A DNA stretch of 53,389 bases. Origin: Magnetococcales bacterium (lineage in GTDB: Bacteria > Pseudomonadota > Magnetococcia > Magnetococcales > JADFZT01). Each line of letters opens with the position of its first letter. Positions within the stretch are counted from its first letter, which is position 1. Made by a program: the position numbers and the translations under genes. Shown piece after piece: positions 25,560 to 45,324 of this stretch. Below the pieces are notes generated by a model that ran no database searches, was not told the origin of the DNA, and worked only from the letters and a program-made list of their open reading frames with translations. Location of the stretch: contig JADFZT010000028.1 in the NCBI GenBank assembly GCA_015232395.1, positions 1 through 53,389 on the forward strand. The letters run 5' to 3'.

Positions 25560-25967
25560 CTATTCACCAAACTTCAATCTCATAAAATGAGCCAGCTTTC
25601 TGTCTGAACCAAAAGCGTGGCCGCCAAACCAGCCAACGAAAAAGAGATATAAATCTTGAGGGGATGGTTTCGTTTTGATGGCTTCCTTGGTCTTGTTGTG
25701 AAGCTCTTTGATTAAAAGGACATGATCACTGCGATGGTTTTCCGAATCCGGATATTCGTATATACGCATTAAAATGTCTTCAGACTGAAAGTGCCACTTG
25801 GTATAGGCCATCACATCGTCCATCGCCTCGACGATTTGTTTCTGCGTCTGAAATGTATTACAGGCATTCAGGGCTTTGTTGACAATTTCTGTTAACCGCT
25901 TGTGTTGAACATCGATTTCCTTCAGACCGATCAGATAGTCATCGCTCCACTCGATTATTTCAGCCAT
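25560..25967 (-). CDS. Bacteriohemerythrin
   Basis: The 135-residue single-domain protein has the full di-iron ligand set of bacteriohemerythrins: H22 (DVQHKRL), H59 and E63 (WHFQSED), H78 and H82 (ENHRSDHV), H117 and D122 (GGHAFGSD). These proteins bind oxygen reversibly and are thought to store, deliver or sense it in microaerophiles. A strong purine-rich ribosome site (GAGAGGGAGAGGGA) precedes the ATG. It converges on the glycosyltransferase gene. A second hemerythrin domain occurs at the end of the multidomain protein at 39560-42181. Confidence 0.93.
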   Translation of the reverse strand: MAEIIEWSDDYLIGLKEIDVQHKRLTEIVNKALNACNTFQTQKQIVEAMDDVMAYTKWHFQSEDILMRIYEYPDSENHRSDHVLLIKELHNKTKEAIKTKPSPQDLYLFFVGWFGGHAFGSDRKLAHFMRLKFGE

Positions 25968-38852: not shown

Positions 38853-39500
38853 TCAGCTTGATGCTTCCTCGGCGGCGTGGGCCTCATCTACCGATTTTTG
38901 CAGCGCCTCCCGATCGATCCACCAATCATCTCCCACCATATGTTCCAGGCCGGTCATCACCAGGGGAATGTAGTGGTCGGGGTCGTCCAGCTTGTTCAGC
39001 TTGACCCACTTGTCAAAGGCCGGTTTATTTTCCACCCCGGCGGTTTTGCACACCAGATCAAACATCTGCTGGGCTTGCCCCTGAGCCAGAGCCCGGTCGG
39101 GATGGTCGGGGGTGCGGTGTTTGGCGACCAGATGGGCCAGGGCTGCGATGGGGCCGGCCAGTTCATGCTTGGGCCCCAGGGTGTTGAGCAGATGAAAGAG
39201 GGCGATTACGGGCTCAGTCACCGGTGCCTGGGTTTTTAGACCCACCCAGACTCTTTGGGCCAGTGCTTTGTAAATTTCAACATTTTTAAACTTGGAGGAG
39301 AGGGCTTTCAGGATATTCAGCACTTCCTCCCAGTTGCCCTCCTTGCTGAGTTTGGTGACCGCCTCGCGTTTTTCCTTCCACTCTTTGCTGGCTTCAGCTT
39401 TGCGGGAGGTTTCGGAAGTGGCTTCGGATTCAAAGGCGGGGATGGCCTGTATTTTGATGGGTTTGATTAAACGGTCGTTACTGTTGGTGGTATCGTTCAT
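38853..39500 (-). CDS. Conserved-looking helical protein, unknown
   Basis: The 215-residue cytoplasmic product is mostly helical. It starts with a polar, lysine/glutamate-rich stretch (ETSRKAEASKEWKEKREAV), then TPR-like helices (WEEVLNILKALSSKFKNVEI, KALAQRVWVGLK) and helices ending in EALQKSVDEAHAAEEA. I do not recognise a family. AGGA lies about 7 nt before the ATG at 39500. It follows the MBL-cNMP-hemerythrin gene by about 60 bp on the same strand, so the two are probably co-transcribed and may act together. Confidence 0.72.
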   Translation of the reverse strand: MNDTTNSNDRLIKPIKIQAIPAFESEATSETSRKAEASKEWKEKREAVTKLSKEGNWEEVLNILKALSSKFKNVEIYKALAQRVWVGLKTQAPVTEPVIALFHLLNTLGPKHELAGPIAALAHLVAKHRTPDHPDRALAQGQAQQMFDLVCKTAGVENKPAFDKWVKLNKLDDPDHYIPLVMTGLEHMVGDDWWIDREALQKSVDEAHAAEEASS

Positions 39501-39559
39501 GAATTTTCCTGAAAAAAAAATGAGTGGCATGAAGCCCGCTGGATGGGGCCTGAGCCGGG

Positions 39560-42181
39560 TCAGTAGATTCCCTTCCCATTCAGGAAGGAGCCAAATTTTT
39601 TATCTTCCGGCAGAATGTGGTCGATGATCCACTCTTTGAAAAAACGCGGAAAATCGATACCTGACCAATCTGCTTCCATCTGGAGTTGGACCTGAAAAGC
39701 GTGGATTCGTTCCAATAGCACTTCATGTTGTTGCCGATGGCTGGCAAGGGCCTCATAGCCATGACGTATCATGAGTTCTTCTTCATCATGGAAGTGGCAC
39801 TTGGCAAACTCAATCAAAATTTTCAACGACTTGTGTACGCTTTGCTGGGGGGTTTCCGAGCGGTTTAAAACGGCGTGAATGGAGTCAGCCACCTGTAAAA
39901 GCTTGCGGTGCTGGGCGTCCATCACCTGGACGTTGATACTGAAAGCCTCCCGCCAGTGGAAAAGGGTCAGCCGTTTTTCGCTCTCCAGCAGGATGCCCAT
40001 GCGCTTACGGAAGGCTTCGAACAGCTTGAGGCGAACGATGGGAATGGCTCGGACCACCTTGGCGGGAATCCGATAGACATCTGTTCGAGAGACCGCTCGG
40101 ATACCGAACAGGCTGGGGGTATCGAAGACTGCCGTCTCCTCCCCGAAAAAATCCCGGGGGCCCAACATTTCGATGGACTCCTCCCCCAAGAATCGCTCCA
40201 TCCGTCCCCTTTTGACCAGATAGAGAAAGTCCCGCTCCTCTCCAGCCGCCACCTCTTCCCCGGTCTGGTATTGGTGGAGGTGCATCGATTCGGCCACTTC
40301 GATCTGGGTGGTGTGGGAGAGTCCCTCACCAAAGAGTGACGTCTGCTCCAACAGATCCCGGGCTTCGTGGATTGCTTCAATTTTGCTGTAGAGGTCGTTG
40401 CGTTTGACGAACTCCAGATAGATCCGGAAGGGAAATTTGAGCACCTGGACAAAGCTGGCGGTGCGATAGGTCGCCGGGGAGGGGAGTTGATAGAGCCCGG
40501 TAAGATCCCCCAGGAGGGAGCCTGCTGACAGCACGCTTTTGAGGTTTTGCTTGGTTTGGATCCGCTCCACACTACCGGCCAGGATCAAAAAGATGGTTTT
40601 ATTGACCTCATGTTCCTTGAGAATAATGGTCCCGGGATTCAGCTCCCCCAGTTCGCTGTTGAGCAAAATCCGGAAGTCGTGGCGCTTGGCTGTGGGAAAA
40701 TAGGAGCGTAAAAATTCATAGGCGCTGCGGCGCAGGCTATCGGAACGATCCGGTATCAGGGTATCGGTGACCCCAAAGGGGGCACTGGAGCCGATCTCCT
40801 TTTCGGCATCGGTCAACTCCCGGGCAATGTGGGAAAGCAATATTTTTCCCGAGGCATCGTCCCGAAAATCTTCAGCCCGGCCATGAATCAACCCCCCACC
40901 GATATCGAGTTTTTTAAGATCAGCCGGGGTGAGATAGGCGCTGCGGACCGTTTCGAAAAAGGTCGCGCTGATGCCCGGCTCGGTGGGGGAGTCGGTGATC
41001 ATCCGCTTGAGGACGTCAAAGGCGGAAATGTCGGCAAAGTGGGCATAGGTGGGATAGCCATTTTCCCAGAGAGTACGAAAGAGAAACAGGCTGGTTTCCA
41101 CCGGGTGGGGAGAAAAAATCGGTTTGACCTCAAGCCCCTCAATCTGGTTCCAGCGCTCGAAGGTGAGATCTTGAATGTCGAAAAAATCCGCAAAGGCCTG
41201 GGTGTCGAGGGAGAGCAGGGCCGACCATTTTTTTTCCACCGAAGCCCGCACCAGGGGGGTGGCATAATATTTAATCCGGTGGCCCGCCCGCATGAGGGTG
41301 GCGATACCGGCAAAATGGTCGTCGTGGGCGTGGGTATGAAAAAGACCTTCGATTTCGCTGATGCCGATACCGAGCGCCGTTAAGCTATAGAGCAGGTTGG
41401 GGCCCGCATCAATCAGATAGATTTTACCCTGGAACATCAGGATGGAGGACATGGTGGGGCGGTCCACATCCCAGCCGTCTCCTTCGCCAGAGTGGATGAT
41501 GCCGAAATATTCCCGCTTGATGCGTTGAAATCCCAGAGGATAGGCGGATTCATAGGCGTCGTTGGGGCCCAGATTGAGATCGACGCTAACCCGTTCATCA
41601 TCATATTGAAATTCGAAGACATTGAGCCGCTTACGTTGGATGAAGGCCCCGTTTTGAATTTCCACAGGGGAATCTTCAACGATGCGGGCTTCCAGGAGTT
41701 CCTGGAAGGGGCGGATGTTGCCAAAGGCAAACCAGCGCTTGATGCGCATCATCCATTCCGCATCTTCCGGCGGGGTGCCGGTTTCCAAAATTTCATCTTC
41801 GGAGATGAGACCATAATTGCCCCGAAAGATGGTCTGCATCTGGCTTTTAACCTGCTCCCCACGACCGATGAGCAGGGGTTTGGCACCGGTATTATTGGGA
41901 TGGTTGGGGAGAATCATGCCCTGTTTATAGAGCATCTGCATCACCGGGAATTCCGCCAGATTGGCGATGTGCCCATTTTGTATCACCAAGTCGGAGAGTA
42001 AAATGGCACTGGGGCCGGTTTCGTAAGGCACCCCTTTGGTTTCCATGGTGACGATGAGTCCCCGTTTCATGAGATGCTTGACGCTGTCGGCAGGGCAGCC
42101 GCAGAGGACTTTCAGCCCAGCCTGGGGAATTTCAACCCAGTAGACCCCTTTGCAGATTTGGATTTTGGTGATTTGGGACAT
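39560..42181 (-). CDS. Metallo-beta-lactamase / tandem cNMP-binding / hemerythrin multidomain protein
   Basis: The 873-residue protein has an N-terminal region of unknown fold (1-200). A metallo-beta-lactamase-type domain follows (about 225-450; HTHAHDDH 282-289, LIDAGPNLL before it). Two CRP-like sensor domains come next (about 500-600 and 620-720; the second has a clear cassette, FFGEETAVFDTPSLFGIRA). It ends with a bacteriohemerythrin domain (H758 in MDAQHRKL, H796/E800 in HFHDEEELM, H815/H819, H855 and D860 in DHILPED). No membrane segment or signal is present. The layout suggests a cytoplasmic hydrolase or di-iron enzyme gated by a nucleotide and by oxygen; this is inferred. Confidence 0.88.
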   Translation of the reverse strand: MSQITKIQICKGVYWVEIPQAGLKVLCGCPADSVKHLMKRGLIVTMETKGVPYETGPSAILLSDLVIQNGHIANLAEFPVMQMLYKQGMILPNHPNNTGAKPLLIGRGEQVKSQMQTIFRGNYGLISEDEILETGTPPEDAEWMMRIKRWFAFGNIRPFQELLEARIVEDSPVEIQNGAFIQRKRLNVFEFQYDDERVSVDLNLGPNDAYESAYPLGFQRIKREYFGIIHSGEGDGWDVDRPTMSSILMFQGKIYLIDAGPNLLYSLTALGIGISEIEGLFHTHAHDDHFAGIATLMRAGHRIKYYATPLVRASVEKKWSALLSLDTQAFADFFDIQDLTFERWNQIEGLEVKPIFSPHPVETSLFLFRTLWENGYPTYAHFADISAFDVLKRMITDSPTEPGISATFFETVRSAYLTPADLKKLDIGGGLIHGRAEDFRDDASGKILLSHIARELTDAEKEIGSSAPFGVTDTLIPDRSDSLRRSAYEFLRSYFPTAKRHDFRILLNSELGELNPGTIILKEHEVNKTIFLILAGSVERIQTKQNLKSVLSAGSLLGDLTGLYQLPSPATYRTASFVQVLKFPFRIYLEFVKRNDLYSKIEAIHEARDLLEQTSLFGEGLSHTTQIEVAESMHLHQYQTGEEVAAGEERDFLYLVKRGRMERFLGEESIEMLGPRDFFGEETAVFDTPSLFGIRAVSRTDVYRIPAKVVRAIPIVRLKLFEAFRKRMGILLESEKRLTLFHWREAFSINVQVMDAQHRKLLQVADSIHAVLNRSETPQQSVHKSLKILIEFAKCHFHDEEELMIRHGYEALASHRQQHEVLLERIHAFQVQLQMEADWSGIDFPRFFKEWIIDHILPEDKKFGSFLNGKGIY

Positions 42182-42606: not shown

Positions 42607-45324
42607 TCAGTTCAGTTTGATCGTCTGCTCCTCATAGGAGATGGTATCCTTCATCCCTCCCAGGGAGGCTTGGGCTGCGGCCAGCCGGGCTATATAGACC
42701 CGGAAGGGGGAGCAGGAGACATAATCCAGCCCCACCTGCTCGAAAAAGGCGATGGAGGCCGGGTCGCCGCCGTGCTCGCCACAGATGCCCAGTTTAATCT
42801 CCGGATAGGTGATCCGGCCTTGTTGCACCGCGATCTTGATCAACTGACCCACACCGGCTCGATCCACGGTGACGAAGGGATCCTGGGGGATGATCCCCTT
42901 GTCCACATATTCCATCAGAAAGATCCCGGCATCGTCCCGGGAGATGCCCAGGGTGGTCTGGGTGAGGTCGTTGGTGCCGAAAGAGAAAAATTCTGCGCTC
43001 TGAGCCAGTCGGCCTGCGGCAAGGGCCGCCCGAGGCAGTTCGATCATGGTGCCGATGAGCACCTTCAGGGTGACCCCTTTTTCTTTCTGGACCAGGTCGC
43101 ACTCCGCCTGACAGGTTCGGCGCATGGCTTCGAGTTCTTTATTGTGGCCTACCAATGGGATCATGATTTCCGGGGTGATGGTAAATCCTTCATTCTTGAC
43201 CAGATCACAGGCCGCTTCCATGATGGCCCGCACCTGCATCTCATAGATTTCCGGGTAGGTGATACCCAGGCGACACCCCCGGTGGCCCAGCATGGGGTTG
43301 AACTCCTTCATATCCTCCACCCGTTCCCGGATGTCGGAAATCGGCAGCCCCAGTGAGTTGGCTACCTCGGCCTGGCCTTTTTCATCCCGGGGGATGAATT
43401 CGTGGAGAGGCGGGTCCAGCAGACGGATGGTGACCGGCAAGCCCTGCATCTCCCGGAACAGCCCTTCAAAGTCTCCCCGTTGCATGGGCAGGATTTTTTG
43501 CAGGGCAGCCCGGCGGCCTGCTTCATCCTGGGCCAGGATCATCTCCCGCACCGCCAGAATGCGCTCTTCCTGGAAAAACATATGCTCCGTACGGCACAAC
43601 CCAATCCCCTCAGCGCCGAATTTGCGGGCGATGCGGGCATCTTCCGGGGTGTCGGCGTTGGCCCGAACCCCCATCCGGCGAATGCCGTCAGCCCAGCTCA
43701 TGAAGGTGGTGAAATCCTCACTGGGTTCCGGATCCCGGGTGGCAATGCGCCCCACCATGATTTCACCGGAAGCCCCATCCATGGTGAGCCAATCCCCCTT
43801 TTTGACCCGGGTGCTACCGACGTTGAAGCGTTCGTTGGCAAAATCGATGCGCAGATCCACACAACCCGAGACACAAGGCCGCCCCATACCCCGGGCCACC
43901 ACCGCCGCGTGGGAGGTCATGCCACCACGGGCAGTGACGATGCCTTTGGCCGCATGCATGCCCTGAATATCCTCGGGGTTGGTCTCATCCCGCACCAGAA
44001 TGACATCCCGTCCTGCTTCGGCTTCGGCCACGGCATCTTCGGCATTGAACACCACCTGCCCGGAAGCCGCTCCAGGAGAAGCAGGCAGTCCAGTGGTTAG
44101 CACCGGCTTGTCGGCCCGGGCTACGGGATCCAGGGTGGGGTGGAGAATTTGGTCGAGATCGGTGGGATCCAGGCGGCGGATCGCCTCTTCCCGGGTGATC
44201 AGGCCCTCCTTGACCATATCTACGGCGATGGTGAGCGCCGCTTCGGTGGTACGCTTGCCGTTGCGGGTTTGCAGAATCCACAGACGATTGTTCTGGATGG
44301 TAAATTCCAGATCCTGCATATCCCGATAATGGGTCTCCAGATGCCGGACAAACTGGCGCAATTCTTTGTAAAGCTCCGGCATGGTCTCTTCCATGGCCGG
44401 AAGGTCCGAACGATTGCGCTCCTTGCCTTCTACCGTAATCTGCTGCGGAGTGCGGATGCCTGCCACCACATCTTCGCCCTGGGCGTTGATGAGATATTCC
44501 CCATAAAAGCGATTTTCGCCGGTGGCCGGATCCCGGGTAAAGGCCACCCCGGTGGCACAGTCATCGCCCATATTGCCGTAGACCATGGCCTGGACATTGA
44601 CCGCTGTACCCCAGTGGTCGGGAATATGATGGAGTCGGCGATAGGTGATGGCCCGGGGGATGTTCCAGGATTTGAACACGGCACCGATAGCGGCCCATAG
44701 TTGTTCATGGGGATCCTCGGTGAGAGGTTTGCCGGTCTCTTGGAGAATGATCTCCTTGAAACGGCTGGCAAGCTCCTGCCAATCTTCAGCAGTGAGGTCC
44801 ACATCCCGCTCCTTGTTCCGGAGCTTTTTCAGCGCCTGGATCTTCTCTTCAAACAGGTGATGTTCCACCCCCAGCACCACCTCCCCATACATCTGGATAA
44901 AGCGGCGGTAGGAGTCATAGGCGAAGCGGGGATTGTTGGTCTTTTTGATGAGACCTTTGACGGCGGCGTCGTTCAAACCCAAATTGAGCACCGTATCCAT
45001 CATGCCCGGCATGGAGGCCCGGGCCCCGGAGCGCACCGAAACGAGCAGGGGGTTTTCAGGATCCCCAAAACGGGCGTCCATGGTTTTTTCCACCCAGGCC
45101 AGCGCTGATTCGACACTTGGCTGAAGATCCGGGGGAAACTGTTCACGGTTGGCCAAAAAGGCGTTGCACACCTGAGTGCCGATGGTAAACCCGGCTGGCA
45201 CCGGAATACCGATACGGGTCATCTCGGCGAGATTCGCCCCTTTGCCGCCCAGGATGGTGCGCATATCCGCATCCCCCTCGGCCAGACCGTCACCAAAGAA
45301 AAAAACCTGCTTGTTGCGTACCAT
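42607..45324 (-). CDS. ppdK: Pyruvate, phosphate dikinase (PpdK)
   Basis: PPDK interconverts pyruvate, ATP and phosphate with PEP, AMP and pyrophosphate. The 905-residue product shows the N-terminal nucleotide-binding part (KGANLAEMTRIGIPVPAGFT), the phosphohistidine domain (GGMTSHAAVVARGMG, H472) and the C-terminal PEP/pyruvate barrel (LCRTEHMFF, NPMLGHRGCRLG, FGTNDLTQTTLG). Length and motifs are complete. GGAG lies 6 nt before the ATG. It starts 9 bp after glyS, so it is in the glyQ-glyS unit. In sulfur oxidisers that fix CO2 it can feed gluconeogenesis; its pyrophosphate use would pair with the APS branch (inference). Confidence 0.95.
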   Translation of the reverse strand: MVRNKQVFFFGDGLAEGDADMRTILGGKGANLAEMTRIGIPVPAGFTIGTQVCNAFLANREQFPPDLQPSVESALAWVEKTMDARFGDPENPLLVSVRSGARASMPGMMDTVLNLGLNDAAVKGLIKKTNNPRFAYDSYRRFIQMYGEVVLGVEHHLFEEKIQALKKLRNKERDVDLTAEDWQELASRFKEIILQETGKPLTEDPHEQLWAAIGAVFKSWNIPRAITYRRLHHIPDHWGTAVNVQAMVYGNMGDDCATGVAFTRDPATGENRFYGEYLINAQGEDVVAGIRTPQQITVEGKERNRSDLPAMEETMPELYKELRQFVRHLETHYRDMQDLEFTIQNNRLWILQTRNGKRTTEAALTIAVDMVKEGLITREEAIRRLDPTDLDQILHPTLDPVARADKPVLTTGLPASPGAASGQVVFNAEDAVAEAEAGRDVILVRDETNPEDIQGMHAAKGIVTARGGMTSHAAVVARGMGRPCVSGCVDLRIDFANERFNVGSTRVKKGDWLTMDGASGEIMVGRIATRDPEPSEDFTTFMSWADGIRRMGVRANADTPEDARIARKFGAEGIGLCRTEHMFFQEERILAVREMILAQDEAGRRAALQKILPMQRGDFEGLFREMQGLPVTIRLLDPPLHEFIPRDEKGQAEVANSLGLPISDIRERVEDMKEFNPMLGHRGCRLGITYPEIYEMQVRAIMEAACDLVKNEGFTITPEIMIPLVGHNKELEAMRRTCQAECDLVQKEKGVTLKVLIGTMIELPRAALAAGRLAQSAEFFSFGTNDLTQTTLGISRDDAGIFLMEYVDKGIIPQDPFVTVDRAGVGQLIKIAVQQGRITYPEIKLGICGEHGGDPASIAFFEQVGLDYVSCSPFRVYIARLAAAQASLGGMKDTISYEEQTIKLN

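Follow-up and report, generated by a model that had tools for sequence, protein, structure and literature searches.

Introduction

Phosphodiesterases in which a metallo-beta-lactamase (MBL) domain is followed by two cyclic-nucleotide-binding (CNB) domains are represented by Dictyostelium GbpA (DdPDE5) and GbpB (DdPDE6), which belong to class IIb and are stimulated by cyclic nucleotides (PMC11988041). Among other class II enzymes, Apyc1, a phosphodiesterase for cyclic mononucleotides, and RNase Z are homodimers (PMC9117128), and long-form tRNase Z (ELAC2) carries tandem MBL units in one chain as the result of a duplication (PMC3714273, PMC5646807). Control by hemerythrin has its precedent in enzymes of cyclic di-GMP (c-di-GMP) signalling (PMC9388753, PMC8846402). 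Here we analysed a contig of 53,389 nucleotides from a Magnetococcales bacterium (JADFZT010000028.1, assembly GCA_015232395.1; this whole stretch is called the window below), which encodes on its minus strand (39560..42181) an 873-aa protein made of an N-terminal domain (N-domain), an MBL domain, two cNMP-fold domains and a bacteriohemerythrin domain. By architecture, the fusion is best read as a bacterial counterpart of GbpA and GbpB, and from sequence comparison we give a probability of about one half to its being a signalling enzyme of the class II phosphodiesterase type that is gated by oxygen or redox state, with a cyclic mononucleotide as the putative substrate.

An earlier note on this DNA, made from its letters alone, had proposed an undescribed signalling system at this locus, and a full-text search of the open literature indeed found no description of the architecture. 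The combination of MBL, CNB and hemerythrin domains is not mentioned in the text of a hemerythrin review (PMC9388753), nor in the main text of a 2016 survey of hemerythrins (PMC4919030). The fusion belongs to a widely conserved family of signalling enzymes made of known building blocks.

Results

The order of domains in the fusion gene was established with Pfam, NCBIfam and a full-length AlphaFold2 model (pLDDT 87.7, pTM 0.83), and the contig that carries the gene is part of a 4.94-Mb genome. The MBL, cNMP-fold and hemerythrin domains that the earlier note had placed in one polypeptide all scored above their Pfam cut-offs, and the complete 873-aa architecture recurs at ~50-55% identity in most Magnetococcales genomes (protein search, 61 relatives) as well as in named species, among them those of Magnetospirillum, Gallionella and Desulfonema. 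This recurrence excludes a chance fusion, and the MBL-cNMP-cNMP-hemerythrin protein is real.

The MBL domain (residues 212-480; 40742..41548, minus strand) matches Lactamase_B at residues 251-312 with 32.1 bits (cut-off 22.7), and alignment identified a complete dinuclear ligand set, which together place the fusion in the MBL-fold hydrolase superfamily. The HxHxDH motif, H284-A-H286-D-D288-H289, lies at 41315..41332 (minus strand), and H359, D384 and H451 complete the seven ligands. All seven are invariant in each of the 120 homologues aligned, and the loop D426-I-G-G-G-x-I-H433-G434 is invariant too. The HxHxDH core noticed earlier is therefore present, and the loss of metal ligands among homologues, which had been named as a ground for doubt, never occurs at this site. 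In a search of PDB sequences, the family's MBL profile came closest to Apyc1 (E 4e-7).

The N-domain (residues 1-211; 41549..42181, minus strand) has no Pfam match and no metal-ligand motif, HxHxDH being absent from it. Folded alone, it gave a model with pLDDT 88 (m73cc0b42a50d), for which the top 30 PDB matches by Foldseek were all MBL-fold proteins (TM-score 0.28-0.50); the best of them was Apyc1 (E 5e-4, probability 1.00, TM-score about 0.4-0.45). In the full-length model, its order of strands and helices also parallels that of the MBL domain, and on these models the N-domain is likely to be a degenerate MBL-like domain. Several results weigh against this assignment: its profile found nothing among PDB sequences, profile-profile comparison with the family's own MBL domain (hhalign) gave no significant relation, a fold search in the BFVD viral structure library gave nothing significant, and fold similarity, with modest TM-scores, is the sole basis for calling the domain MBL. 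The first ~200 residues had earlier been described as having no recognisable fold, a statement that no longer holds for the predicted structure, which matches MBL folds, though sequence searches are silent.

Conservation of the N-domain equals that of the MBL domain, with a mean column identity of 0.71 in both and with 50 of 211 positions at least 98% invariant across the 120 homologues, compared to 60 of 269 in the MBL domain. The invariant positions include C27xC29P..K35, L61-L62-x-D64, N74..E77F78P79, H94 and N97. The near-invariance of C27, C29, K35, H36, D64, E77, H94, N97, R120 and K148 is striking in a domain that has no metal motif, and these residues possibly form a second metal or ligand site.

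A profile of the core (residues 4-480, N-domain plus MBL domain) detected relatives in 48 of 48 Magnetococcales genomes searched, as against 7 of 350 sampled from elsewhere in the phylum; among GTDB species genomes, a pattern scan led to at least 496 confirmed core relatives. The best 80 of these include Magnetospirillum, Paramagnetospirillum, Gallionella and Mariprofundus, together with Desulfonema and other Desulfobacterota, SAR324, Campylobacterota, Anammoxibacter and Planctomycetota. Judging from their names, we take most of the listed relatives to be bacteria of low-oxygen or iron-rich habitats. The core is thus found in magnetotactic bacteria, where the earlier note had suggested looking, both throughout the Magnetococcales and in other magnetotactic lineages, and in iron-oxidising and sulphate-reducing lineages besides. 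The possibility of a mobile or anti-Pycsar gene was also considered and rejected, as the core had no match in the plasmid and phage collections searched.

The core occurs with an N-terminal receiver domain (REC), with an N-terminal solute-binding domain (SBP_bac_3, hereafter SBP) followed by a transmembrane (TM) segment, with a C-terminal hemerythrin, or with none of these. In the core tree, well-supported branches show at least 9 gains or losses of hemerythrin. Mean column identity in the cNMP and hemerythrin domains was 0.47-0.54, and 2-3 positions in them were at least 98% invariant. Because the core and its ligands are invariant while hemerythrin, REC and SBP are swapped, the MBL core is probably the constant, catalytic output, and hemerythrin would be one of several optional inputs. 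From the topology of the SBP-TM forms, we infer that the core is cytosolic.

Several of these variants have neighbours worth recording. The genome under study has a second copy of its own, with the order REC-core-hemerythrin (G000:C18:1495-4614; L039/L068), upstream of which lies a TonB-dependent receptor gene on the same strand. The SBP-TM-core variants L055, L060, L061 and L064 lie in an operon conserved in four related genomes, which also encodes an ABC-2 membrane protein as well as a YdjC/glycosyltransferase fusion (60-74% identity); this setting hints at a role connected with the envelope or with polysaccharides. A co-directional PAS-PAS-HD-GYP gene lies immediately upstream of each of two short forms that have no hemerythrin (L049:3789-5981 and L065:4869-6959); the two PAS-PAS-HD-GYP genes are 70% identical to each other, and a link to c-di-GMP is possible. 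In a SAR324 homologue (L174:7986-10673), a putative ATP-dependent zinc protease-like domain (PF05618) stands in the place of hemerythrin.

Pfam found cNMP_binding twice in the fusion (64.4 bits, cut-off 27.5), at residues 506-615 (40337..40666) and 616-735 (39977..40336), both on the minus strand. They most resemble the tandem CNB domains found in PKG and in PKA regulatory subunits, and the CNB fold of both is certain. In the alignment with PKG, however, S690 takes the place of the phosphate-binding arginine in the second domain, and the corresponding position of the first is S568; arginine was found there in 10 and 4 of the 120 homologues, respectively. At the positions of the ribose-binding glutamate, residue 561 is S, A or P, and residue 683 is G, S or T, with glutamate in 11 of 120 homologues. 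The trypanosomatid PKA regulatory subunit (PKA-R), in which the same arginine is lost, binds nucleosides rather than cyclic AMP, aided by a glutamate (PMC10959531). By sequence, then, the two domains carry neither the cyclic AMP signature nor the nucleoside signature. Since the canonical arginine is missing from both, and from nearly all homologues, sensing of cyclic AMP or cyclic GMP is not supported, and the two cyclic-nucleotide sensors of the earlier note are reduced to two domains of that fold.

The bacteriohemerythrin domain (residues 740-870; 39572..39964, minus strand), delimited by NCBIfam and by ligand columns, scored 41.4 bits in Pfam at residues 751-864 (cut-off 25.3) and 101.8 bits with NF033749 (cut-off 84). 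Its seven di-iron ligands, which the earlier note had already reported to be visible, were located in alignment columns as H758, H796, E800, H815, H819, H855 and D860. Retention of these ligands was incomplete among homologues: all seven are kept in 65 of the 80 hemerythrin-bearing homologues, and at least one is lost in the other 15. The window also contains a separate gene for a single-domain bacteriohemerythrin of 135 aa (25560-25967, minus strand).

Discussion

We propose that the fusion would act as a cytosolic one-component signalling enzyme, in which the degenerate MBL-like N-domain and the active MBL domain would form, within one chain, the pseudo-dimer of a class II phosphodiesterase. 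This core would most likely hydrolyse a cyclic mononucleotide produced by the class III cyclases of the genome, and the tandem CNB-fold domains, of the PKA-R/PKG type, would serve as an allosteric relay between core and sensors. The C-terminal hemerythrin may bind O2 or change its redox state, and would set the rate of hydrolysis via the cNMP modules; in homologues, a receiver domain or a periplasmic SBP with its TM segment would be used as input in its stead. More tentatively, we suggest that the homologues make up an undescribed, phylum-spanning class of second-messenger hydrolases, in which an in-chain pseudo-dimer is coupled by a non-canonical CNB relay so that O2, REC or SBP-TM input would control cyclic-nucleotide breakdown. 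The signalling reading of the earlier note is kept in so far as it rested on a complete bacteriohemerythrin domain joined to an MBL hydrolase; its cyclic-nucleotide sensors and its 215-aa partner protein are given up.

A phosphodiesterase is proposed because Apyc1 is the nearest relative of solved structure, because the order MBL-CNB-CNB is that of GbpA and GbpB, because class III cyclases occur in all 48 Magnetococcales genomes (2-20 per genome, 12 in this one), and because this genome has no match to PDEase_II (PF02112), a result that leaves room for other phosphodiesterase families. Given the homodimers formed by Apyc1 and RNase Z, a pseudo-protomer within the chain is an economical explanation of the N-domain. 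Several observations weigh against a phosphodiesterase gated by oxygen. The same PDEase_II result counts here as well, the Apyc1 profile (PF23023) stays below its cut-off (19.5 vs 50 bits), the highest NCBIfam score among MBL families is that of RNase Z (TIGR02651; 35.4 bits, below the cut-off of 292.95), and some hemerythrin domains have lost ligands. MBL folds in general serve many substrates. A search with the class I phosphodiesterase profile PF00233 was uninformative, its controls being silent.

The same modular control could instead govern an MBL hydrolase for another substrate, such as RNA, a cyclic dinucleotide, a lactone, a sulfate ester or a phosphonate. Besides the RNase Z score, this is favoured by the arylsulfatase, PNGM-1, PqqB and PhnP-like diphosphatase that rank near Apyc1 among the fold and sequence matches; however, Apyc1 itself heads both searches, and nucleotide signalling is what the tandem CNB domains and the many cyclases suggest, so that we regard another substrate as rather unlikely. 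The MBL site could also be a di-iron sensor of O2 or redox state in the style of flavodiiron/ODP proteins, with the cNMP modules as output. The O2-related spread of the family and the O2-binding domain in the same chain would suit such a sensor, but sites of the flavodiiron type carry HxExDH, whereas the motif here is HAHDDH, with H286 invariant, and the nearest sequences are zinc hydrolases. Hemerythrin would moreover be redundant beside such a sensor, and the core is joined to REC and SBP-TM inputs, all of which makes this explanation improbable.

Slightly more doubtful still is a view that takes the core for a scaffold or input module and hemerythrin for the functional end, storing or delivering O2 or iron. 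The genome does carry 19 hemerythrin domains, mostly single-domain, which would fit such a role; yet it is the core that stays invariant, whereas hemerythrin is repeatedly missing or has lost ligands, and REC-core and SBP-TM-core proteins exist without it.

The earlier note had further suggested a partner in the product of the next gene, a predicted helical protein of 215 aa encoded by an open frame on the same strand (38853..39500, minus), 60 bp downstream of the fusion gene, which is itself an open frame. An alternative upstream ATG would give 225 aa, and the protein has no Pfam, NCBIfam or PDB match. The family to which it belongs is present in 40 of 48 Magnetococcales genomes, had no member in the other genomes sampled, and adjoins the fusion gene in 2 of the 48, here and, divergently, in G006; in the single-contig genome G011 the two are at least 65 kb apart. 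As synteny is not kept, we reject the protein as a conserved partner, and a dedicated two-protein O2-sensing system, despite the close co-directional arrangement seen here, is very improbable. Generic signalling proteins were the sole recurring class around fusion genes, and no conserved operon partner was found. Upstream of the fusion gene studied here and on the same strand lies a 905-aa frame (42607-45324), which we take to encode pyruvate phosphate dikinase.

If the phosphodiesterase reading is true, the fusion represents a previously unnoticed phosphodiesterase family through which bacteria of the oxic-anoxic boundary would convert signals from O2, a phosphorelay or the periplasm into changes in nucleotide second messengers, and the MBL-CNB-CNB design of Dictyostelium would have its counterpart in bacteria. 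It would also suggest a role that can be tested for tandem CNB domains that have no cyclic-nucleotide arginine, and a candidate turnover enzyme for the class III cyclases of the Magnetococcales, in which the universal core could link O2 sensing to nucleotide signalling.

Among known systems, Apyc1, YhfI, yeast PDE1 and RNase Z, as class II MBL phosphodiesterases, share the dinuclear HxHxDH site with the fusion; they are compact homodimers, whereas the fusion appears to combine a pseudo-MBL and an active MBL domain in one chain with regulatory domains. ELAC2 offers a proposed analogy in layout to the N-domain and MBL domain, although the two halves of the fusion have no significant sequence relation and the RNase Z model scores far below its cut-off. 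Like DcrH, VcBhr-DGC and Ferrovum Bhr-HD-GYP, the fusion joins a hemerythrin that has the canonical ligand pattern H-HxxxE-HxxxH-HxxxxD to a domain for signalling or second messengers (PMC9388753), but it has as output an MBL hydrolase equipped with CNB modules. Trypanosomatid PKA-R has the same tandem CNB fold with the phosphate-binding arginine replaced (PMC10959531), but most members of our family do not have the ribose-binding glutamate by which nucleoside binding is recognised. GbpA and GbpB, likened to the fusion by domain order alone, are cytosolic and likewise have two tandem CNB-fold domains behind an MBL catalytic domain. Compared to them, the fusion is bacterial, lacks in both cNMP domains the phosphate-binding arginine for stimulation, and has an additional conserved N-terminal domain and fusions to hemerythrin, REC and SBP.

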